This document shows, in pieces, positions 2,257 to 45,734 of a DNA stretch of 64,000 bases. The notes beneath the pieces are model-generated. The model ran no database searches and was not told where the DNA came from. It saw only the letters and a program-made list of their open reading frames with translations. The first letter of the stretch is position 1; every line of letters begins with the position of its first letter. Both the position numbers and the translations under genes were made by a program. This stretch comes from Sneathiella marina (GTDB lineage Bacteria > Pseudomonadota > Alphaproteobacteria > Sneathiellales > Sneathiellaceae), in NCBI RefSeq assembly GCF_023746535.1, contig NZ_CP098747.1:1556364-1620363 (forward strand), in the 5' to 3' direction.

Positions 2257-3254
2257 GCTACAGCCTCATCTTTTCCGGGATGGCCTTCAGGGCTGCCCCC
2301 TTTAAGAGGATAATGACAAAGAGCGGAACCAAAGCCGGCATTTGCAGCTACGGGCCTTTCTGAGCGGCACCGGGATGTTGCATAGGCGCATCGGGGGGAA
2401 AAAAGGCATCCAGCAGGCCGATCGAATTGCCCCGGTACAACACCGGGAATTGACGCCAGCTTTTTGCCGACGGCACGTTCCGGTAAGGCTGAAAGCAGGG
2501 CTTGGGTGTAAGGATGATGCGGCTCTGAGAAAAGACCTTTAACATCCTGCATTTCAATGCGCTGCCCGGCATACTGAACTGATACCCGTTGAGCGGTTTC
2601 CGCTACCACTCCCATATCATGCGTGATCAATACCAGAGCCATGCCGGTATCCTGCTGTAACTTGAGAAGCAGGTCAATAATCTGGGCTTGAATAGTGACA
2701 TCCAGCGCGGTTGTCGGCTCATCGGCAATTAACAGTTTGGGCTGACAGGCTATAGCCATGGCGATCATGACCCGCTGGTTCATACCGCCGGAAAGCTGGT
2801 GAGGAAAGGAAGACAGGCGTTTTTCAGGCGCCGGAATACCAACTTGTTCCAATAAATTGACAATGCGCTCTTTCTTTTCACGGCGGCTTAGTTTGAGATG
2901 CGCTTGCAAAGCCTCACCAAGTTGGAAGCCGACGGTGAAGCAGGGGTTGAGGCTGGTCATCGGCTCTTGAAAAATCATCGCGATATCTTTGCCGATAATA
3001 TTCCGCCGTTCTTTTGGTCGCATATTTAGCATATCTTGGCCATCAACAGCCATAATATCGGCGGTGATGGTCGCCGTCCAGGGAAGGAGACCCATAACGG
3101 CCAGCATGGCGACAGATTTGCCGGAACCGGATTCGCCGACAACGGCCAGAACCTCACTTTTCTCCACCGTCAGTGACACATTATCTACGGCCCGGAAATT
3201 TCCATGCGCAGTCCGAAAATCAACACTAAGATTTTTAACTTCCAGCAAGCTCAT
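2253..3254 (-). CDS. dppD: Dipeptide ABC transporter ATP-binding protein DppD-like
   Basis: A 333-residue ATPase partner of DppF. Walker A GESGSGKSV is at 40-48. The signature SGGMNQR is followed by MIAMAIACQPKLLIADEPTT with the Walker B Glu, and then ITHD with the H-loop. The C-terminal Opp/Dpp extension GCLFSPRC is present. ABC importers of this class use a DppD/DppF heterodimer. The gene sits 1 base after dppC and overlaps dppF by 4 bases, so it is part of the same transcript. Confidence 0.9.
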   Translation of the reverse strand: MSLLEVKNLSVDFRTAHGNFRAVDNVSLTVEKSEVLAVVGESGSGKSVAMLAVMGLLPWTATITADIMAVDGQDMLNMRPKERRNIIGKDIAMIFQEPMTSLNPCFTVGFQLGEALQAHLKLSRREKKERIVNLLEQVGIPAPEKRLSSFPHQLSGGMNQRVMIAMAIACQPKLLIADEPTTALDVTIQAQIIDLLLKLQQDTGMALVLITHDMGVVAETAQRVSVQYAGQRIEMQDVKGLFSEPHHPYTQALLSALPERAVGKKLASIPGVVPGQFDRPAGCLFSPRCAYATSRCRSERPVAANAGFGSALCHYPLKGGSPEGHPGKDEAVA

Positions 3255-3255
3255 A

Positions 3256-4173
3256 TCAAGATCTCCGAAGTTTGGGGTCTAGAGCATCGCGTATTCCATC
3301 TCCCATCAGATTGATGGCCAGAACAGTGAGTAATATGGCGATCCCTGGCAGGGTAACAACCCACCAGGCGCGCAAGATAAACTCACGGGCCTCAGCAAGC
3401 ATGGTCCCCCATTCCGGCGTTGGAGGCTGGGCACCCATCCCCAAAAATCCCAAGGCTGCCGCATCGAGGATTGCCGTCGAAAAGGACAATGCGCCCTGGA
3501 CAATAAGAGGAGCGAGACAATTGGGTAGAATGGTGTTGAACATCAGGCGCGGTGTTTTTACGCCAGCAACACGTGCCGCAGTTACATAATCCTTTGAGCG
3601 TTCCCCCATGACAGCCGCACGGGTAAGCCGGACATAATGCGGTTGTTGAACAATGGCGATAGCAATCATGGCATTGACCAGGCTTGGGCCGAGAATGGCG
3701 ACCAAAGCAAGGGCGAGCAGGATGGCAGGAAAGGATAGGATAACGTCCATGATCCGCATGATCAGCGTATCCAGAATACCTCCAACAAAGCCGGAAATCA
3801 GGCCAACAATGATACCGACACTCAACGCCAGTGAGACCACGATACAACCAACAAATAATGAATACCGGCTTCCGTAAATAAGCCGGGAAAGCATGTCGCG
3901 GCCAACCGGATCAGTTCCCAGAATAAATTTCCACGATCCCCCTTCCTGCCAAACTGGCGGGACAAGGAGCGCGTCGCGAAACTGTTCTACTGCCGTATGC
4001 GGTGCAACAACATCGGCAAATATGGCGATCAGACAGATAAAAAGGAAAAACCACATGCCGGCAACAGCGCCCTTGTTTTCCTTGAAATACTTCCAGAACT
4101 CAATCAACAATGCCAGACGTGTTGTCTTGCGATTGTCGAGATCTTCTGGGATGGGTGCAAGCGTGTCTGTCAT
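3256..4173 (-). CDS. dppC: Dipeptide ABC transporter permease DppC-like
   Basis: An inner-membrane permease of 305 residues. I start it at the ATG at 4173 (MTDTLAPIPEDL) because this codon follows the dppB stop by one base and is preceded by a GGGGGG run. The longer form from 4215 would overlap dppB by 41 bases. It has an N-terminal cytoplasmic segment, a first membrane helix (VAGMWFFLFICLIAIFADVV), the BPD_transp_1 domain and the EAA loop region (AARVAGVKTPRLMFNTILPN) that contacts the ATPases. It pairs with DppB to form the channel. Confidence 0.9.
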   Translation of the reverse strand: MTDTLAPIPEDLDNRKTTRLALLIEFWKYFKENKGAVAGMWFFLFICLIAIFADVVAPHTAVEQFRDALLVPPVWQEGGSWKFILGTDPVGRDMLSRLIYGSRYSLFVGCIVVSLALSVGIIVGLISGFVGGILDTLIMRIMDVILSFPAILLALALVAILGPSLVNAMIAIAIVQQPHYVRLTRAAVMGERSKDYVTAARVAGVKTPRLMFNTILPNCLAPLIVQGALSFSTAILDAAALGFLGMGAQPPTPEWGTMLAEAREFILRAWWVVTLPGIAILLTVLAINLMGDGIRDALDPKLRRS

Positions 4174-8219: not shown

Positions 8220-9407
8220 ATGCCGCTTGAAATCGCCTATTCACCGTTGCTGGTGATGGCGTCAATTGCAATCGCGATAACCGCATCATTTACGGCCCTG
8301 AGGATGACCTCCAATTTACGCCTGATGACGGTGGCACAGCGAAAAAGACGGGTTGCCCAAGGTGCCTTGGCTCTGGGCGGCGGGATCTGGTCCATGCATT
8401 TTGTCGGCATGTTGGCCGTGGATATGCCGTTGTCGCTGGCCTACGCGCCTTTGCCAACACTTGGATCAGCCCTTATCGCAATTTTGGTGACGGGGGCGGC
8501 CCTGCTGTCGCTGCATTTTGGTGTGCGGAACAAGAAACGTATTGCCATCGCCGGTGTGATCACCGGCATCGGGATTGTCGCAATGCATTATCTGGGGATG
8601 AGCGCCATTTCCGCGAACTGTATTGTCACTTACAATCCGGTGGGGCTGGTGGTCGCGGTAACAATTGGTATTGCAGCGTCCATTGCCGCCATGGAACTTG
8701 CCTATGGGCAGCGCACCTTAAAAGCCGCTATCGCGGGAGCCGTCGTCCTTGGGCTTGCTATTTCTGCCATGCATTATTCAGCCATGTATTTCACAATTTT
8801 CAGCATAAATACCGATGTGGTTGCAACACCGGTTTTGAGTAAAGATACATTGGCATTGATCGTCGCTCTGGCGTCCTTCTTTATCTGCGGATTATTCCTG
8901 TTATCGGCCGTACCGTCGGGTGTTGAGCCTGCGACATCGACCGCAAATGATGAGAATGCCCCGGCAATAGCGGAAAATGAGGCGCTGCTGAATGGAAGGG
9001 ACGAGGTTACCGCCAAGGCAGCTTCCTCGGTCGCGTTTTCGCGGGCCATGTCTCAATCAACGGAGGATATAAATGATGGTCGCATTCCCTATGACAGAAA
9101 CAAAACCATCCGCTTCTTGCCGTCCTCAGCCATTCTGATGGCGCAGGCTGATGGACATTATACCAAGCTTCATAACGGGGAAGAGGAACTGTTCTGTCCC
9201 TGGCCAATTTCCCGGCTTGAGAAAAAGCTGAGCCCCAGCATGTTTATCCGCACGCATCGCAGCTATTTGGTTAATCGCCAGAAGATTACCGGACTGCGTC
9301 GTGACGGTGACAAGGCCTTCTGTTTAATGGGGGACGAGACGAATATTGAAGCGCCGGTCAGCCGCGGGCGATTGGCAGAACTACGTGAAATATTAAAAAT
9401 CGGATAG
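8220..9407 (+). CDS. coxC: Membrane MHYT-LytTR regulator, CoxC-like
   Basis: I start it at 8220 (MPLEIAYSPLLVMASIA) because a GGGAGA motif lies 5 bases upstream; the frame is open further upstream to 8091. The 395-residue protein has an N-terminal MHYT sensor of about seven membrane helices with repeated motifs SMHFVGM, AMHYLGM and AMHYSAM, thought to bind a metal. A linker leads to a C-terminal LytTR DNA-binding domain (about 300-395, with FIRTHRSYLVNRQKI). The same architecture is known for CoxC and CoxH of Oligotropha carboxidovorans. It would act as a membrane-anchored one-component regulator, plausibly sensing CO or another diatomic gas. It lies directly upstream of coxM. Confidence 0.85.
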   Translation: MPLEIAYSPLLVMASIAIAITASFTALRMTSNLRLMTVAQRKRRVAQGALALGGGIWSMHFVGMLAVDMPLSLAYAPLPTLGSALIAILVTGAALLSLHFGVRNKKRIAIAGVITGIGIVAMHYLGMSAISANCIVTYNPVGLVVAVTIGIAASIAAMELAYGQRTLKAAIAGAVVLGLAISAMHYSAMYFTIFSINTDVVATPVLSKDTLALIVALASFFICGLFLLSAVPSGVEPATSTANDENAPAIAENEALLNGRDEVTAKAASSVAFSRAMSQSTEDINDGRIPYDRNKTIRFLPSSAILMAQADGHYTKLHNGEEELFCPWPISRLEKKLSPSMFIRTHRSYLVNRQKITGLRRDGDKAFCLMGDETNIEAPVSRGRLAELREILKIG

Positions 9408-9428
9408 CTATTCGATTGGAGTTGCGTC

Positions 9429-9461
9429 CGCATTTCGTGCAGAATTTTCGCATTTCGTGCA
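9429..9461 (+). promoter_or_regulatory. Direct repeat upstream of coxM, candidate LytTR operator
   Basis: Two exact copies of CGCATTTCGTGCA start at 9429 and 9449, a 20-bp period or two helical turns, in the 188-base gap between the MHYT-LytTR gene and coxM. LytTR proteins are known to bind paired direct repeats on one DNA face, so CoxC is the obvious candidate binder. A TTnnnG pattern occurs three times on the plus strand at 9434, 9445 and 9454. I recall a TTnnnG triplet being described for the CO regulator RcoM, also a LytTR protein, but could not check that. No clear -35/-10 could be assigned downstream. Confidence 0.6.
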
Positions 9462-9595
9462 CCATAGGCGTTATCTAAGACTGTTACCTTACCTTCTGCC
9501 CAGATTTTGCCTCATGCTCTTCCCAACCGCGAAGTAATCGCTGGATCAGGCCAAAATCAGTGTCTGAATATTAATATTTAGGGAGGAGCATCAGA

Positions 9596-10459
9596 ATGAT
9601 ACCCGGGTCATTTGACTATCATCGACCGCAATCCATTTCCGAAGCTGTCGGCATGCTGGCAGATATGGGAGACGATGCGATCATCGTTGCTGGCGGACAC
9701 AGCCTGATACCGATGATGAAATTGCGCATGGCATTGCCAGAGCATCTCATCGATATTCAGGATATTTCCGATATCAAGGGAATTACCGTTTCTGGATCGG
9801 AGGTAACCATCGGCGCCATGGTGACGCAAGCCGAGCTGATCGGTTCGGAAGAAATTCATGCTGTCTGCCCGATTTTACGCGAAACAGCCCTGCAGATTGC
9901 CGATCCTCAAATCAGAAATGTCGGAACAGTTGGCGGCAATGTGGCCAACGGAGATCCTGGCAATGATATGCCGGCGCTCATGCAGGCCCTTGATGCGACT
10001 TTCGTCCTGGCCGGTGGATCCGGTAGTCGTGACGTCAAGGCGCGTGACTTCTACGAAGCCGCGTTTTTTACGGCGCGTGAAGAAGGCGAAATACTGACCG
10101 CCATAAAATTCACGGCACCGCCCGCTGGCCATGGGTACGCCTATATGAAGCAGAAACGCAAGATCGGTGATTATGCGACCGCTGCCGCCGCTGTCATGCT
10201 GACCTTGAATAATGGGACGGTAAGCTCGGCCTCGATCGGTCTTACAAATGTGGCGGATACGCCTCTTTATGCTGACGCTGCTGTGGCTGCGCTTGTGGGC
10301 TCATCTTTGGATGATGCCAGTATTAAAGCTGCCGTGGAGGCCGCAAAGTCTATTACTGATCCGGCCATTGACGGTCGAGGTCCCAAAGAATTTCGCACTC
10401 ATATTTTGGGCGTTATGGTTGAACGCGCCATTCGCGCTGCTGCGGCCAACGCGGCCTAA
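9596..10459 (+). CDS. coxM: Carbon monoxide dehydrogenase medium (FAD) subunit
   Basis: A 287-residue flavoprotein of the CO dehydrogenase/xanthine dehydrogenase family. The two FAD pyrophosphate-binding motifs are AGGHS at residues 32-36 and TVGGN at 111-115, at the positions I recall for the Oligotropha enzyme. A CO_deh_flav_C domain occupies the C-terminal third. It passes electrons from the CoxS clusters to the quinone pool. A GGGAGGAG ribosome binding site precedes the ATG. It is the first structural gene of the cox operon. Confidence 0.94.
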
Positions 10460-10481
10460 TCACATCTTGTCGGAGAAAAAA

Positions 10482-10973
10482 ATGTCAAAAATGCATGTTA
10501 AAATGACGGTAAACGGCAAGGAAGTGGAAGCCCTAGCCGAGCCGCGCACGCTCTTAATTCACTTCCTTCGCGAAGATCAACAACTGACCGGTCCGCATAT
10601 TGGCTGTGATACGGGTCATTGTGGGGCCTGTACAGTCGATATGGATGGAAAGTCGGTTAAGTCTTGTATGACCTTTGTCGGCCAATCCAACGGAAAAAAT
10701 GTCACCACAATAGAAGGAATTGCGCATCCCGACGGCACCTTGCATGCCTTACAGGAAGCGTTTCGGGAGCATCACGGGTTGCAATGCGGGTTTTGCACAC
10801 CGGGAATGATTACCCGGGCGCATCGTTTGCTCCAGGAAAATCCATCACCGACGGAAGAGGAAATTCGCTATGGAATTTCCGGCAATCTTTGTCGGTGCAC
10901 CGGATATCAGAATATTGTCAAGGCCATCACGGTCGCTGCGGATATGCTCAACGCTCAGGAGGCAGCAGAATAA
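10482..10973 (+). CDS. coxS: Carbon monoxide dehydrogenase small [2Fe-2S] subunit
   Basis: The 163-residue start at 10482 ([16 protein letters not shown]) follows a CGGAG site; the open frame extends upstream into coxM and that part is discarded. The N-terminal plant-type ferredoxin domain carries Cys42, 47, 50 and 62. The C-terminal helical domain carries Cys102, 105, 137 and 139 (QCGFCTPGM and [10 protein letters not shown]). All eight ligands of the two clusters are present. The subunit conducts electrons from the CoxL molybdenum-copper site to CoxM. It lies 22 bases after coxM and its stop precedes the coxL start by one base. Confidence 0.95.
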
Positions 10974-10974
10974 C

Positions 10975-13398
10975 ATGAATGATCAAGCACCCCTATCCCG
11001 GGAAGATCGGGTAAAAAACCTTAAAGGTATCGGCTCAGAACGGAAACGCGTCGAGGATGCCAGATTTACGCAAGGCAAAGGTAACTATGTTGACGATATA
11101 AATTTACCGGGCATGTTGTTCGGCGATTTCGTCCGCTCCCCTTACGGTCACGCGCGGATCAAAAGCATCGATAAGGAAGCGGCGCTGGCAGTGCCCGGCG
11201 TTGTTGCGGTTTTGACGGCAGAAGATCTCAAACCGCTTAACCTCCATTATATGCCGACTTTGGCCGGGGATGTGCAGGCGGTTCTTGCGGACGAGAAAGT
11301 CCTGTTTCAAAGCCAGGAAGTCGCCTTTGTCATCGCTGAAGATCGCTACATCGCGGCCGATGCTGTCGAGCTGGTGGAAGTGGATTATGAGGAATTGCCG
11401 GCTTTGACCGATGCCTTTAAGGCATTGGATGAAGATGCGCCGTTACTCCGCGAAGATATAAAGGATAAAATGGAAGGGGCCCATGGTCCCCGTAAGCATC
11501 ATAACCATATCTTTCTGTGGGAAGAGGGCGATAAGGATGGCACGGAAAAAGCGCTGTCTGATGCGGAAGTGGTTGCCGAAGAATTGATTACGTATCAACG
11601 GGTCCATCCTTGCCCGCTGGAAACCTGCGGCTGTGTGGCCTCTATGGACAAGATCAACGGCAAACTGACTTTGTGGGGTACTTTTCAGGCGCCGCACGCG
11701 GTTCGAACAGTGGCCTCCCTGATCACCAACATCGCGGAGCATAATATCCGGGTGGTTTCACCTGATATAGGCGGCGGCTTCGGCAACAAGGTCGGTGTTT
11801 ATCCGGGATATATCTGCGCAGCCGTGGCGTCTATCGTCACTGGAGTTCCGGTTAAATGGGTTGAAGACCGGATGGAAAACCTGACGGCAACCGCTTTCGC
11901 CCGCGACTATCATATGACCGGTAAAATTGCCGCGACCAAAGACGGTAAAATTACAGGTCTATGGTGCCATGTGTTGGCTGATCATGGGGCTTTTGATGCC
12001 TGTGCGGACCCAACCAAGTTCCCGGCAGGATTTTTCCATATCGTGACCGGGTCCTATGATATTCCGGTGGCTTATGTTGGCGTTGACGGTGTCTATACAA
12101 ATAAGGCGCCGGGCGGGGTGGCGTATCGTTGTTCGTTCCGGGTAACGGAAGCGGCGTATTTGATTGAGCGCATGATTGAAATTCTGGCGCTGAAACTGGA
12201 TATGGATCCTGTGGAACTTCGAATGAAGAACTTCATCCGAAAGGAGCAATTCCCGTATCAGTCCGCACTTGGATGGGAATATGACAGCGGTGACTATCAT
12301 ACAGCCATGGAAAAAGGCATGGCCGCAGTCGAATATGACGCCCTGCGCAAAGAACAGGCCGAAAACCGGGCCGCCTTTGATCGCGGGGAAACCCGGACCT
12401 TGATGGGGGTCGGTACAGCCTTCTTCACGGAGATCGTTGGTGCCGGGCCGGTAAAGAACTGCGACATACTTGGTCTTGGCATGTTTGACAGCTGCGAAAT
12501 TCGCATCCATCCGACCGGGTCGGCCATTGCGCGTCTTGGTACCATTAGCCAGGGGCAGGGGCATGCAACGACATTTGCCCAGATTCTGGCAACTGAAATT
12601 GGTATCCCGGCGGAAGATATTACCCTGGAGGAAGGGGATACGGACACGGCGCCTTATGGTCTGGGGACCTATGGCTCGCGGTCGACGCCGGTGGCCGGTG
12701 CCGCCACCGCCATGGCCGGGCGAAAGATCCGCGCCAAGGCGCAGATGATTGCGGCGTATTTGCTGGAAGTCCATGAAGGAGATCTGGAATGGGATGTGGA
12801 CCGGTTCCAGATCAAGGGAAATCCGGAAGCCCATAAAACCATGAAAGAGCTGGCCTTTGCATCCTACAATCAGGCCATTCCGGGATTGGAGCCCGGCCTT
12901 GAAGCGGTGTCCTATTATGATCCGCCGAATATGACCTATCCTTTTGGTGCCTATTTCTGCGTCGTTGATGTGGATGTGGATACTGGTGTCGTAGATATCC
13001 GGCGTTTCTACGCCTTGGATGATTGCGGTACCCGTATCAATCCGATGATCATTGAGGGGCAGGTTCATGGCGGACTGACAGAGGCCCTTGCCATCGCCAT
13101 GGGACAGCATATTACCTATGACGAAGGCGGAAATGTGCATGGCGGCAGCCTGATGGACTTCTTCTTGCCGACCGCCGTGGAAACACCGGTTTGGGAAACT
13201 GATTATACGACAACCCCGTCGCCCCATCACCCCATCGGGGCCAAGGGCGTCGGTGAAAGCCCCAACGTGGGTGGTGTACCGGCTTTTTCAAATGCGGTTC
13301 ACGATGCGTTCGCTCATAAGGGTTTGACCCATACTCAAATGCCCCATGATCATTGGCGCGTATGGCAGACTGCCCAAAAACTAGGGCTGACTGACTAG
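10975..13398 (+). CDS. coxL: Carbon monoxide dehydrogenase large subunit, form I
   Basis: An 807-residue molybdenum hydroxylase subunit starting at MNDQAPLSREDR; a longer frame upstream overlaps coxS and is discarded. It carries the form I active-site loop AYRCSFR with Cys386, the sulfur ligand of the catalytic copper, and KGVGES with Glu761. Both sit two positions before the Oligotropha residues Cys388 and Glu763. Form II relatives have AYRGAGR instead, so this is the true CO-oxidising type. It binds the molybdopterin cytosine dinucleotide cofactor and oxidises CO to CO2. An AGGAGG lies 12 bases before the start, inside coxS. Confidence 0.95.
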   Translation: MNDQAPLSREDRVKNLKGIGSERKRVEDARFTQGKGNYVDDINLPGMLFGDFVRSPYGHARIKSIDKEAALAVPGVVAVLTAEDLKPLNLHYMPTLAGDVQAVLADEKVLFQSQEVAFVIAEDRYIAADAVELVEVDYEELPALTDAFKALDEDAPLLREDIKDKMEGAHGPRKHHNHIFLWEEGDKDGTEKALSDAEVVAEELITYQRVHPCPLETCGCVASMDKINGKLTLWGTFQAPHAVRTVASLITNIAEHNIRVVSPDIGGGFGNKVGVYPGYICAAVASIVTGVPVKWVEDRMENLTATAFARDYHMTGKIAATKDGKITGLWCHVLADHGAFDACADPTKFPAGFFHIVTGSYDIPVAYVGVDGVYTNKAPGGVAYRCSFRVTEAAYLIERMIEILALKLDMDPVELRMKNFIRKEQFPYQSALGWEYDSGDYHTAMEKGMAAVEYDALRKEQAENRAAFDRGETRTLMGVGTAFFTEIVGAGPVKNCDILGLGMFDSCEIRIHPTGSAIARLGTISQGQGHATTFAQILATEIGIPAEDITLEEGDTDTAPYGLGTYGSRSTPVAGAATAMAGRKIRAKAQMIAAYLLEVHEGDLEWDVDRFQIKGNPEAHKTMKELAFASYNQAIPGLEPGLEAVSYYDPPNMTYPFGAYFCVVDVDVDTGVVDIRRFYALDDCGTRINPMIIEGQVHGGLTEALAIAMGQHITYDEGGNVHGGSLMDFFLPTAVETPVWETDYTTTPSPHHPIGAKGVGESPNVGGVPAFSNAVHDAFAHKGLTHTQMPHDHWRVWQTAQKLGLTD

Positions 13399-13455
13399 GA
13401 CATTGGTCGGGGCCGGGTGACTTTTCCCGGCCCCGCACTATTTGGTAGGGGTAAG

Positions 13456-14334
13456 ATGACGGAAAACAGAAACATACGCGATCAACTGCGGGCGGCGGAT
13501 TATGTGGCGGATGACGCCCTGTCCACGGCCTTGCAACTGGCGATCAATCTCAAGCGGCCCTTGTTGCTGGAAGGGGAGGCAGGAGTTGGCAAAACAGAAG
13601 TGGCAAAAGCTTTGGCTTCTATCATGCAGACCAATCTTATACGCTTACAATGTTATGAAGGTCTGGACGCGGCTGCGGCGATATACGAATGGAACTACCA
13701 AAAGCAGCTGCTGTATATAAAGGCTTCGGAGCGGGAAGATAAAACGGCCTCGCAAGTCGAGCAGCATATATTTACCGAAGATTTTTTGCTCGAACGTCCT
13801 TTGCTACAAGCCATTGGTCAGGAAATCTCCCCGGTGTTGCTGATCGATGAGATTGATCGGGCGGATGAGGAGTTTGAAGCCTATCTTCTTGAAATCCTGT
13901 CTGATTTCCAAATTACGGTGCCTGAACTTGGCACCATAACGGCGACGTCAGTTCCGCATGTCATCCTCACGTCCAACGGGACAAGAGAGTTATCTGACGC
14001 ATTGCGTCGGCGATGCCTGTATTCCTATGTGGATTTTCCGTCGCAAGCGCGGGAACTGGAAATTATCCTGTCTCGTGTGCCGGATATTGAAGCAGGCCTT
14101 GCCGACCAGATATCTCGTTTTGTCCTGAATTTGAGGAAGGAAGAACTGGAGAAAAATCCCGGCGTTGCGGAAACGCTAGATTGGGCGGCGGCGCTTGTCG
14201 GATTGAAAATCAGCAGTTTGGACGGAGATCTTGAGACCATCCAGTCGACGCTGATCTGTCTGCTGAAAACAGAAACGGACCTTAAATCCATCACCAAGGA
14301 GGTTGCCAGCCGACTACTCGGTAAAGCGGCGTAA
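13456..14334 (+). CDS. coxD: MoxR-type AAA+ ATPase for CO dehydrogenase maturation
   Basis: A 292-residue AAA+ protein. I start it at 13456 (MTENRNIRDQL) after GGTAGGGGTAAG rather than at the GTG 39 bases upstream. Walker A GEAGVGKT is at 40-47 and Walker B VLLIDE at about 127-132, followed by a sensor-type Asn (LTSNGTREL) and arginine-rich segment. In Oligotropha CoxD drives insertion of sulfur and copper to form the Mo-S-Cu cluster of apo-CODH, working with CoxE. It follows coxL directly, and coxE starts one base after its stop. Confidence 0.9.
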   Translation: MTENRNIRDQLRAADYVADDALSTALQLAINLKRPLLLEGEAGVGKTEVAKALASIMQTNLIRLQCYEGLDAAAAIYEWNYQKQLLYIKASEREDKTASQVEQHIFTEDFLLERPLLQAIGQEISPVLLIDEIDRADEEFEAYLLEILSDFQITVPELGTITATSVPHVILTSNGTRELSDALRRRCLYSYVDFPSQARELEIILSRVPDIEAGLADQISRFVLNLRKEELEKNPGVAETLDWAAALVGLKISSLDGDLETIQSTLICLLKTETDLKSITKEVASRLLGKAA

Positions 14335-14335
14335 T

Positions 14336-15541
14336 ATGGAGCCCATTAGCCATCATATTCAGGATAAAAATATCCTCGAAAACCACCCGTTGGCAGCACG
14401 CATGGCCGGGTTTATTGATCATTTGCGCATGAATGAGTATGCCCTGGGTCCCGCCGAGACACAGATGGCATTACGCGTTATCGGTGATCCTTTTTCAGGT
14501 TTGGATGATGCTCGTCTGAAGTTGAAAGTCCTGTTGACCGGCCGGCCGGAGGAATGGCGGCAGTTTGACGATTTATTTGAGGCCTACTGGACAAGGCTCG
14601 GCAAGGAACGGGCCAGCTGGCAGCATGAGAAAAATGTTCGCAACCGCACCAAAGCCTCCCTGCCTGAAGCCTGGAAAGAGCATCTGTCAGCGTCGGTGCC
14701 CGAAGGCGGGAATGCACCGCAGATTGAGACCGAAGGCGTGGCGGAAGTTGAAGGCGAGGCGTCGGGTCGCCTGATCGCAACGGACAAAACTTCTCAGATG
14801 CGAACGGATTTACGCCAGTATGTGGATGCCGATGAAATCCGGGAAGCTGAGAAACTTGCCTATCGCATCGCCAGTGCCATGCGATACAGGCTATCCCGCC
14901 GGCACCGGTTGTCGGTGCAAGGATCGAAACTTGATTTGCGCCGGACGATCCGGCGGAGTCTGGGGACCGGCGGGGAGCCGATTTCCCTGAAATGGCGCGC
15001 GCGCCCCGATCGTCCGATCCGGCTTGTTGTCTTTCTGGATGTGTCCGGCTCCATGAAGCATTACAGCCGGTTTTTTCTGCAATTCGTGAAAGGACTGGTC
15101 TGTCAGTGGATGGAAGCAGACGCCTATCTGGTTCATACGAAACTGATCCGCGTCACCGATGTGGTCCGCGATAAAAACTCGACGAAGGCGATGACCCGCC
15201 TGTCGCTGATGGCGGAGGGGTTTGGCGGTGGAACCAGGCTCGGGCAAAGTCTGGCGCAGTTCAACTCTCAATATGCCAAGCGTAGCCTCAACGGTCGGTC
15301 GGTTGTTTTGATCCTGAGTGATGGCTACGACACCGGGCCGGCGGATCAATTGGCCGAAGAATTGAAACGCCTGAAAAAACGGGCCCCAAAATTGATCTGG
15401 TTAAATCCGCTGCTGGGCTGGCGACAGTATGAACCGGTTACTCAGGCGATGGCCGCGGCACAGCCCCATATCGATTATTTCGCGGCCGCCAATACGCTGG
15501 AAAGCCTGGCGGCGCTCGAGCCGGAAATCGCCAGGGTATAA
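14336..15541 (+). CDS. coxE: VWA-domain maturation protein CoxE
   Basis: A 401-residue protein starting at MEPISHHIQDK; an upstream TTG in the same frame lies inside coxD and is discarded. The C-terminal half is a von Willebrand A domain with the MIDAS metal motif DVSGS at 235-239 and GGTRLGQSL. The N-terminal region is the CoxE helical part. MoxR ATPases and VWA proteins act in pairs, and CoxD/CoxE are needed for copper insertion into CODH. The order coxD-coxE-coxF matches characterised CO loci. Confidence 0.9.
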   Translation: MEPISHHIQDKNILENHPLAARMAGFIDHLRMNEYALGPAETQMALRVIGDPFSGLDDARLKLKVLLTGRPEEWRQFDDLFEAYWTRLGKERASWQHEKNVRNRTKASLPEAWKEHLSASVPEGGNAPQIETEGVAEVEGEASGRLIATDKTSQMRTDLRQYVDADEIREAEKLAYRIASAMRYRLSRRHRLSVQGSKLDLRRTIRRSLGTGGEPISLKWRARPDRPIRLVVFLDVSGSMKHYSRFFLQFVKGLVCQWMEADAYLVHTKLIRVTDVVRDKNSTKAMTRLSLMAEGFGGGTRLGQSLAQFNSQYAKRSLNGRSVVLILSDGYDTGPADQLAEELKRLKKRAPKLIWLNPLLGWRQYEPVTQAMAAAQPHIDYFAAANTLESLAALEPEIARV

Positions 15542-15557
15542 GGAAGGGAGGGTTTAT

Positions 15558-16400
15558 ATGGTTACATCCAGGAAAACGCTCGATCTGATTGAGAAACTGC
15601 GCGCCCGCGGACAGAGTTTCTGTGTCGCCACCGTATTGCGGACAGCGGACAGCACTTCGGCCCGTGCCGGGGCAAAAGCCGTTGTGACGCCTGAAGGCGA
15701 TTTACATGGATTTGTCGGCGGCGGCTGCGTTACGGGCGCCGTGCGCCGGGCGGCCTTGCAAAGCCTTGAGCTGGGCGAGCCGCAAATGATCCGGGTCAAA
15801 CCCAAAGATGAGGTGGTGACAACAACCGATGTGGATGGGGTCACCTTGCATAAGTCCAGTTGCCCCAGCGGCGGCACCGTGGATATATTTCTTGAGCCCA
15901 TGAAAGCGGCGCGTATTCTGCTGATTTGTGGCGCGTCGCCGATTGCGCAAGCCATTCTATCCGTCGCACAATGCCTGGATGCCCATCTAATTGTCGCAGC
16001 CTCCGAGGAAGACCATGAAAAAATGCCGGGCGCCGCGGCTTATCTGGATGGCTTCGATCTGGATGCATTGACTTTGGATACTCAGGATGCTGCTATTGTT
16101 GCGACGCAGGGCAAACGGGACAGAGATGCATTGCGCGCTGTTATTGCCTCCGGTGCGGGGTACAAAGGGATGGTTTGCAGCCGACGTAAGTTGAATACGC
16201 TAAAAGAAGAACTGCTGAGTGAAAACCTCAATCTGAAGGCCGGTTTCGACGCGCTATACGCGCCTGCCGGCTTGAATATCGGTGCCATTGAGCCCGAGGA
16301 AATCGGCCTTGCTGTCATCACGGAAATCATCGCCCATCGTCGGCAACAGAGTGATCGACAACAACAACCGCAAAATGATGTCGATCAGGAAGTAGGGTGA
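15558..16400 (+). CDS. coxF: XdhC/CoxF-family maturation protein
   Basis: The 280-residue form starts at 15558 (MVTSRKTLDLIEKLRARGQ) after AAGGAAGGGAGGG. The longer upstream frame overlaps coxE. It has the N-terminal XdhC_CoxI domain (FCVATVLRTADSTSARAGAK and VGGGCVTGAVRRAAL) and a C-terminal Rossmann-like XdhC_C domain (ARILLICGASPIAQAIL). The family binds and sulfurates the molybdenum cofactor before insertion. It lies between coxE and the cytidylyltransferase, consistent with a cofactor-loading role. Confidence 0.88.
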   Translation: MVTSRKTLDLIEKLRARGQSFCVATVLRTADSTSARAGAKAVVTPEGDLHGFVGGGCVTGAVRRAALQSLELGEPQMIRVKPKDEVVTTTDVDGVTLHKSSCPSGGTVDIFLEPMKAARILLICGASPIAQAILSVAQCLDAHLIVAASEEDHEKMPGAAAYLDGFDLDALTLDTQDAAIVATQGKRDRDALRAVIASGAGYKGMVCSRRKLNTLKEELLSENLNLKAGFDALYAPAGLNIGAIEPEEIGLAVITEIIAHRRQQSDRQQQPQNDVDQEVG

Positions 16401-16401
16401 C

Positions 16402-17034
16402 ATGGCCTCGGTTCTGCAAAGACTGGATGTGTTGATGCTGGCGGCGGGGCAATCCCGGCGCATGGGGGCCGAAAATAAACTGCTGATGCCGTTCAGGTCG
16501 ACCACCCTGATCCGTCATGTGACCGAGCAGCTGATCGCGGCGAACCTTGGTGAAGTACTGGTTGTCACCGGGTTTGATGCAGAACGGGTAACCAATGAAC
16601 TACTGGATTTGCCGGTGAGATTTTGCCATAACAGCGATTACGAAATGGGTCAGATGTCGTCCGTTCGGGCCGGATGCCGCGTCCTCACGGGCCCGCGCGA
16701 GGGGATGATGGTGGCCCTGTCCGATATGCCCTTCCTGAGTGCAGAAGATTACTGCCGGTTACATAGACGGTTCCGGGCTCAGTCCGCACCGAAAATACTG
16801 ATCCCCGATTATGCGGGAGAACGAGGGAATCCGATCATTATTCCCCGCGAGTTTATTGCAGATATTGCCAAGGGGACGATGAAGGCGGGATGCCGGAAAC
16901 TGGTGCGCGATCACCCGGAAAAAACCGAGATATTTGCTGTGGATAGCAGTGCATATATCGCCGATATTGATACGCCGGGTGATTATGAGCACCTGCTCAA
17001 CACCGCGCTCGCAGCCCGGGCACCTTGTTGTTAA
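16402..17034 (+). CDS. mocA: Molybdopterin cytidylyltransferase MocA-like
   Basis: A 210-residue nucleotidyltransferase with the signature LAAGQSRRMG at 13-22 and ENKLL at 24-28, followed by ALSDMPF with the metal-binding Asp. This family transfers CMP from CTP to molybdopterin, making the cytosine dinucleotide cofactor that CO dehydrogenase requires. It starts one base after coxF, so the operon encodes its own last cofactor step. GTP-specific MobA is less likely given the XdhC/CoxF context. Its final codons and stop lie on the A-run that serves as the U-tract of the opposing terminator. Confidence 0.85.
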   Translation: MASVLQRLDVLMLAAGQSRRMGAENKLLMPFRSTTLIRHVTEQLIAANLGEVLVVTGFDAERVTNELLDLPVRFCHNSDYEMGQMSSVRAGCRVLTGPREGMMVALSDMPFLSAEDYCRLHRRFRAQSAPKILIPDYAGERGNPIIIPREFIADIAKGTMKAGCRKLVRDHPEKTEIFAVDSSAYIADIDTPGDYEHLLNTALAARAPCC

Positions 17035-44591: not shown

Positions 44592-45734
44592 ATGAGTTTG
44601 CAGGAGCCGACATTTACCATTGGGATTGAAGAGGAATATCTTCTCGTCGATCTGGAAACAAGACAGTTGGCGCAGGAACCCTCGGACGCCATCCTGAGTG
44701 AATGCCAAAAAAGATTGCCCGGGCATATCGTTACGCCTGAATTTCTGCGCTCTCAGCTTGAAATAGGCACGCGAATTTGTGCCAATATTTCGGACGCACG
44801 AAATGCCCTGCACGAATTACGCGGTACTGTATCGGAAGTCGCAAATCGCCATGGTTTGGGGTTGATGGCGTCCTCGGTCCACCCCTTTGCGGACTGGCAG
44901 GGCCTCAAGCATACCCCGAAAGAGCGTTACGATATCATTGCCCGCGATATGCAGGCAACAGTGCGCCGGATGATGATTTGCGGCATGCATGTGCATTGCG
45001 GTATAGAAAATCCGGAATTGCGCATCGACCTGATGAACCAGGCCTCCTATTTCTTACCGCATTTGCTGGCGCTCAGTACCTCTTCACCCTTTTGGAGGGG
45101 GGAGAATAGCGGCCTCAAATCCTATCGGGTGAGTGTTTTTGACGCGTTGCCGCGCACGGGTATTCCCGACCGGTTTGAAAGCTATGGCGAGTTCGAAAGG
45201 CTGGTCCAGACCATGGTACAGTCAGGGGCCATAGAGGACGGATCCAAATTGTGGTGGGATTTACGCCCGTCGTCGAAATTCCCAACCCTTGAAATGAGGC
45301 TCACCGATGTCTGTCCGTTGGTAGAGGATAGTCTGACCATTGCCGCCTTATATTCCTGCGTTCTGCGTATGCTCTACCGGTTGCGCCGTAATAATCAGCG
45401 CTGGCGCGTCTATCCGCAGACATTGGTTGCTGAAAATAGATGGATTGCGCAACGCTTCGGTGTTGAGGGTGATTTGATAGATTTTGGCATACCAGGCCCC
45501 GTTCCTGCGGCAGAGTTAATAGAAGAGATTATAGGTTTGACGGCTGAAGACGCGGCTTATCTCGGCTGTGAGGCTGAAGTGCAGCATGCGTTGGAAATCG
45601 TAAGGCGGGGAACCTCTGCGGATCGCCAGCTCGCCTTGTACCGCGAGAGCACCGCAGGCGGTGATGATAACCGCGCGGCATTGATAAAAGTCGTGGATCA
45701 GGTCTTGAAAGAAACTATTTCTGGCATACAGTAA
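44592..45734 (+). CDS. YbdK-type carboxylate-amine ligase (glutamate-cysteine ligase 2 family)
   Basis: A 380-residue GCS2-family enzyme. FTIGIEEEYLLVDLETRQLA at the start carries the acidic metal ligands, followed by VTPEFLRSQLEIGT, SSVHPFADWQ and CGMHVHCGIENP, then LRPSSKFPTLEMRLTD. The family ligates an acid to an amine using ATP, and the enterobacterial YbdK has weak glutamate-cysteine ligase activity. Whether this makes gamma-glutamylcysteine here is unknown. A GGGGGAG site precedes the ATG. It is followed after 28 bases by the DUF1244 gene. Confidence 0.88.
   Translation: MSLQEPTFTIGIEEEYLLVDLETRQLAQEPSDAILSECQKRLPGHIVTPEFLRSQLEIGTRICANISDARNALHELRGTVSEVANRHGLGLMASSVHPFADWQGLKHTPKERYDIIARDMQATVRRMMICGMHVHCGIENPELRIDLMNQASYFLPHLLALSTSSPFWRGENSGLKSYRVSVFDALPRTGIPDRFESYGEFERLVQTMVQSGAIEDGSKLWWDLRPSSKFPTLEMRLTDVCPLVEDSLTIAALYSCVLRMLYRLRRNNQRWRVYPQTLVAENRWIAQRFGVEGDLIDFGIPGPVPAAELIEEIIGLTAEDAAYLGCEAEVQHALEIVRRGTSADRQLALYRESTAGGDDNRAALIKVVDQVLKETISGIQ

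Follow-up and report, generated by a model that had tools for sequence, protein, structure and literature searches.

Genes and Repeats at the cox Locus

The 64,000-nucleotide stretch of Sneathiella marina DNA analysed here (the window) carries a cox locus on its plus strand. Its regulatory gene, coxC (8220–9407), encodes an MHYT-LytTR regulator of 395 aa (Pfam PF03707 and PF04397) with three MHYT repeats and a LytTR domain at its C-terminal end. CoxC is the only LytTR protein encoded in the genome, and it is the proposed binder of the candidate operator described below. The first operon gene 3′ of this operator is coxM (9596–10459, Pfam FAD_binding_5 and CO_deh_flav_C), followed by coxS (10461–10973, Fer2_2) and coxL (10975–13398, the start being approximate; MoCoBD_1/2), the last of which encodes AYRCSFR, the active-site loop of form I. 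Pfam matches further identify accessory genes on the same strand from 13417 to 17034, namely coxD (MoxR-type ATPase), coxE (VWA), coxF/I (XdhC family), and a MobA-like transferase gene.

Between coxC and coxM, the 13-mer CGCATTTCGTGCA occurs twice on the plus strand, at 9429–9441 (repeat 1) and 9449–9461 (repeat 2), 20 bp apart from start to start, and both copies are kept in relatives. The exact 13-bp direct repeat with a 20-bp period described in an earlier, sequence-only reading of the window is thus present, with both copies where that reading had placed them. No second exact direct repeat as long as 13 bp or longer, with a period of 15–60, exists in the window, and none of this kind arose when the window was simulated 40 times under a first-order Markov model. 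A search of the 4.07-Mb genome for the 33-bp double motif gave a single occurrence, even with up to three mismatches allowed. The TTCGTGCA cores at 9434 and 9454 are direct repeats of the TTNNNGCN type expected of a CoxC operator, and the array is adjoined by an MHYT-LytTR regulator gene and by cox structural genes, also as expected of one.

Several other candidate elements were set aside. The sequence-only reading had listed the TTnnnG pattern at 9434, 9445, and 9454; the pattern is present at all three positions, but only those at 9434 and 9454 belong to a full unit. The intervening match (TTTTCG at 9445) lies in the spacer, is not kept by relatives, and appears incidental as a third site. 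A unit, TTGGAGTT, at 9416, 5′ of repeat 1, has no counterpart in any family-wide excess 20–21 bp upstream. Autoregulation at coxC was likewise discarded, as no pair of units in the window lies 5′ of that gene. A near-unit pair on the minus strand (44795–44821, period 14) falls within an opposite-strand ORF (44592–45734), and the second match in the genome, TTCGTG..TTCGTG with a period of 19 (locus L112), falls within an apparent yidC coding region; both are taken as chance.

Conservation of the Unit and Its Spacing

The consensus derived from 102 copies is a 13-bp unit, CGCA(T/G)TTCGTGCA, in which G2 and T7 are invariant. Among 54 loci (53 in which coxC is followed by coxM, plus L002), 51 have, upstream of coxM, a pair of units 20 or 21 bp apart (PWM score at least 20), with a spacing of 20 bp in 31 loci and of 21 bp in 20. 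When both strands of the 53 coxC-then-coxM loci (563 kb) were scanned, the top-scoring pair of every locus fell in the coxC-coxM gap, the PWM having been trained on a set that includes most of the loci scored with it. The best pairs scored 22.7 to 46.2 in 50 of these 53 CoxC loci, versus 0.1 to 12.2 in 27 loci with other MHYT proteins, and the distance from array to coxM clusters around 130 bp. Only weak arrays were found at L034, L054, L059, and L159. In three relatives of the same genus with a close CoxC, the pair is kept behind coxC while the rest of the gap has diverged. The sequence-only reading had proposed a candidate operator for the MHYT-LytTR protein, to be abandoned if the pair were missing in close relatives; its presence in these three relatives and in some 50 further loci instead supports the proposal at the level of sequence. 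A chance repeat without function, for which the shortness of the repeat and its mere two copies might speak, is exceedingly improbable given that position and sequence are conserved in about 50 loci, including unrelated lineages, and that no simulated window contained such a repeat.

A model (R1), built from 40 sequences with the genus of the window left out, recovered the window site as its top match (E = 2.3e-7) in the genome of 4.07 Mb, where the runner-up has an E-value of 0.317, and the homologous site in a relative (G007) at E = 3.5e-4. Over 385 genomes of the class, the top eight matches (E ≤ 0.0016) all lie directly 3′ of the CoxC LytTR domain, and matches beyond these occur at approximately the chance rate. 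Part of the R1 matches in these genomes, those of G025, G046, and G130 (the last with a site identical to that of L033), had been in the training set, whereas G000, G177, G274, G119, and G093, all among the top eight, lie outside it, as does G007. At further CoxC-coxM loci in this sample of 385 genomes, the gap again holds the best pair, in many cases a weaker form of it.

When all offsets were scored alike, the sole other excess of units was at +20/21 bp from repeat 2 (z = 6.5). This third unit is degenerate across the family. Its best candidate in the window, CGTTATCTAAGAC at 9469–9481 on the plus strand, 20 bp after repeat 2, scores −16.5, and in the genus alignment only CG(T) of the unit is invariant (columns C65, G66, and T67). 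A third unit 20–21 bp downstream agrees with published three-repeat operators.

The complementarity of GCA and TGC within the unit raises the alternative that the units fold, one by one, into small hairpins (GCA-NTTCG-TGC) in a leader transcript. The copies of the unit argue against such an RNA element, since the G at position 2 is invariant (102/102) while its would-be partner varies (C in 71 copies, A in 24, T in 6, and G in 1), and changes at position 4 are uncompensated at position 10. The period of 20–21 bp, moreover, fits the geometry of the DNA helix. With no compensating changes among the unit copies, the RNA hairpin was rejected as very improbable, and a DNA-level operator is the preferred reading of the repeats.

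Linkage of the Array to CoxC and coxM

Naturally occurring gene arrangements provide controls for the association of the array with its neighbours. In one genome (G287), some 12 kb separate coxC from the start of coxM; here an array accompanies coxM (score 33.2), and none was found beside coxC. Form I coxM genes without a neighbouring CoxC (in G327, in G360, and in the second copy in G206) have no array, and neither was one found near three further CoxC proteins that have no coxM nearby. The array is thus evolutionarily linked to both CoxC and coxM. It might still be the operator of some regulator other than CoxC, as CoxC is named as the binder on the strength of sequence and LytTR proteins are the class that was surveyed. 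This is very unlikely, considering that the site tracks CoxC and coxM, that its unit matches the published CoxC and RcoM sites, and that the genome encodes no other LytTR protein. CoxC itself very probably binds the array in the window, judging from these sequence relationships.

Related arrays were observed in other settings. G287 also carries another, oppositely oriented array (L167, 1680–1712; score 29.4), which precedes a divergent gene whose product looks like an integral membrane protein. At L169 (G363:C440, 2350–2403), TTCGTGCA, TTCATGCA, and CTGATGCA follow one another at 21 and about 20 bp and precede an uncharacterised, exported-looking gene at a contig end. This genome has a form I coxL, and no close LytTR match was found in it; the array may be an additional target of a CoxC-like regulator. 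At L156 (G074), TTCACGCG, TTCACGCG, and TTGGCGCA are spaced at 20 bp downstream of a LytTR gene on the minus strand (2284–3303), whose product has no MHYT match and which has no coxM nearby. The L156 repeats suggest that the same operator layout is used by other LytTR regulators.

The Published and a Possible Second CoxC Operator of Afipia carboxidovorans

CoxC has been presented as the first transcriptional regulator with an MHYT domain, and as the first shown to sense CO. According to Durante-Rodriguez et al. 2024 (PMC11347149), Afipia carboxidovorans CoxC binds three TTNNNGCN repeats at PcoxB via its LytTR domain and represses this promoter in E. coli, a repression that is relieved by CO in a copper-dependent manner. 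PcoxB is the sole CoxC site reported there. The PcoxB system of strain OM5 and the window have in common an MHYT-LytTR CoxC beside coxMSL and an array of direct repeats with a TTNNNG core; the three units of the former would correspond to the two clear units and the possible third in the latter. They differ in location, since the published operator lies upstream of coxB and that of the window upstream of coxM, and in register, since the published repeats, TTACCGCC, TTTGGGCA, and TTGCGGCA, have starts 29 and 26 bp apart (as read from the published primers), whereas the window has a 13-bp unit at 20–21 bp.

Scoring the pHCG3 locus with the 13-bp unit returned two best pairs, one at PcoxB and one in the coxC-coxM gap. 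PcoxB scored 26.3, with TTCATGCG, TTGGTGGA, and then TTTGGGCA at 21 and 20 bp, and the gap (L026, 6224–6276) scored 26.4, with TTCGTGCA, TTGGTGAC, and then CTGGTGCG, each 20 bp apart. This suggests that the PcoxB operator may be read in a 21/20-bp register instead of the published 29/26, and that the Afipia coxC-coxM array could be a second CoxC operator, one unmentioned in the accessible part of PMC11347149. The mutations reported there bear on the register. PcoxB1 changes TT to GG plus one G to C; in the new register this G falls on the invariant position of unit 2, which would account for the loss of binding. PcoxB2 additionally alters TTTGGGCA, a repeat common to both registers. For PcoxB3, the reported loss of residual binding is left unexplained by the new register.

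Proposed Function and Mechanism

Taken as a whole, the explanation that the repeats are the CoxC operator at the coxM promoter is very likely. The seven-helix MHYT part of CoxC would sense CO (via copper in Afipia carboxidovorans), and the C-terminal LytTR part would bind the 13-bp direct repeats two helical turns apart, a spacing by which successive LytTR domains would contact a single face of the helix. The array would comprise a strong pair and, nearer the promoter, a third unit that is weaker and whose part in it is presumed. By analogy with Afipia, CoxC would occupy the array when CO is absent and block transcription of coxMSL, and CO would release it.

The effect of CoxC on coxM is probably repression, an assignment made by this same analogy. 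The same operator could work with the opposite sign: array-bound CoxC would then be an activator of coxM, like RcoM in Paraburkholderia, and CO would enhance its effect. The RcoM-type array of P. aromaticivorans shares the architecture, and an activating role is ascribed to RcoM (PMC11347149). No sigma-70-type promoter was found in 9380–9620 of the window against which to place the operator, or its overlap with a −35 box, and this is compatible with either sign. Against this stands the repression of PcoxB by Afipia CoxC in E. coli and its relief by CO, and activation is considered a minority possibility, with repression the preferred sign.

A CoxC site had previously been known at one promoter of one species, and putative sites now precede the CO-dehydrogenase genes in some 50 additional bacteria. 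With its fixed period, the 13-bp code would make CoxC control predictable elsewhere, indicates additional candidate targets, and allows the published operator register to be tested directly.

Comparison with Known LytTR Systems

The sequence-only reading had likened the TTnnnG pattern to the sites bound by the CO regulator RcoM, and was right in kind: the RcoM1 site, as given in PMC11347149, consists of three TTCNNGCA repeats with 12–13 bp between them, i.e., a period of 20–21 bp. In the present survey, TTCGCGCA, then TTGATGCA or TTCACGCA, and then TTCAGGAA were found at about 20–21 bp upstream of the cox operons of Paraburkholderia aromaticivorans and of a Caballeronia plasmid. The P. aromaticivorans array (TTCGCGCA, TTGATGCA, TTCAGGAA) adjoins a LytTR-family gene that is taken as RcoM from its position and domain, and the LytTR domain of this protein is 27% identical to that of CoxC in the window. 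Under the CoxC matrix, the arrays of the RcoM-type loci L174 and L175 have low scores, 7.8 and 13.3. No RcoM (heme sensor plus LytTR) was found encoded in the window's genome, the lone LytTR protein being CoxC with its MHYT domains.

These observations suggest that two different sensors, the heme-based one of RcoM and the membrane-borne MHYT one of CoxC, are joined to LytTR domains with almost the same DNA specificity. Whether the broader reading holds in all its parts is an even bet, namely that CGCA(T/G)TTCGTGCA at 20–21 bp is a general CoxC code, that the published PcoxB register is wrong, that Afipia has a second operator at coxM, and that CoxC and RcoM sites are nearly the same despite unrelated sensors.

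The Paraburkholderia RcoM operator has three TTCNNGCA-type repeats at 20–21 bp before a cox operon (PMC11347149), a layout that the CoxC array, with its possible third unit, resembles; the arrays at L174 and L175 are comparable. The regulators themselves differ, RcoM being a heme-containing, single-component LytTR activator and CoxC a membrane MHYT protein. Canonical LytTR sites, 9-bp direct repeats 10–13 bp apart, resemble the array in presenting one face of the DNA with about two turns per period, and differ from it in the sequence of the unit and in usually having two units (as summarised in PMC11347149).
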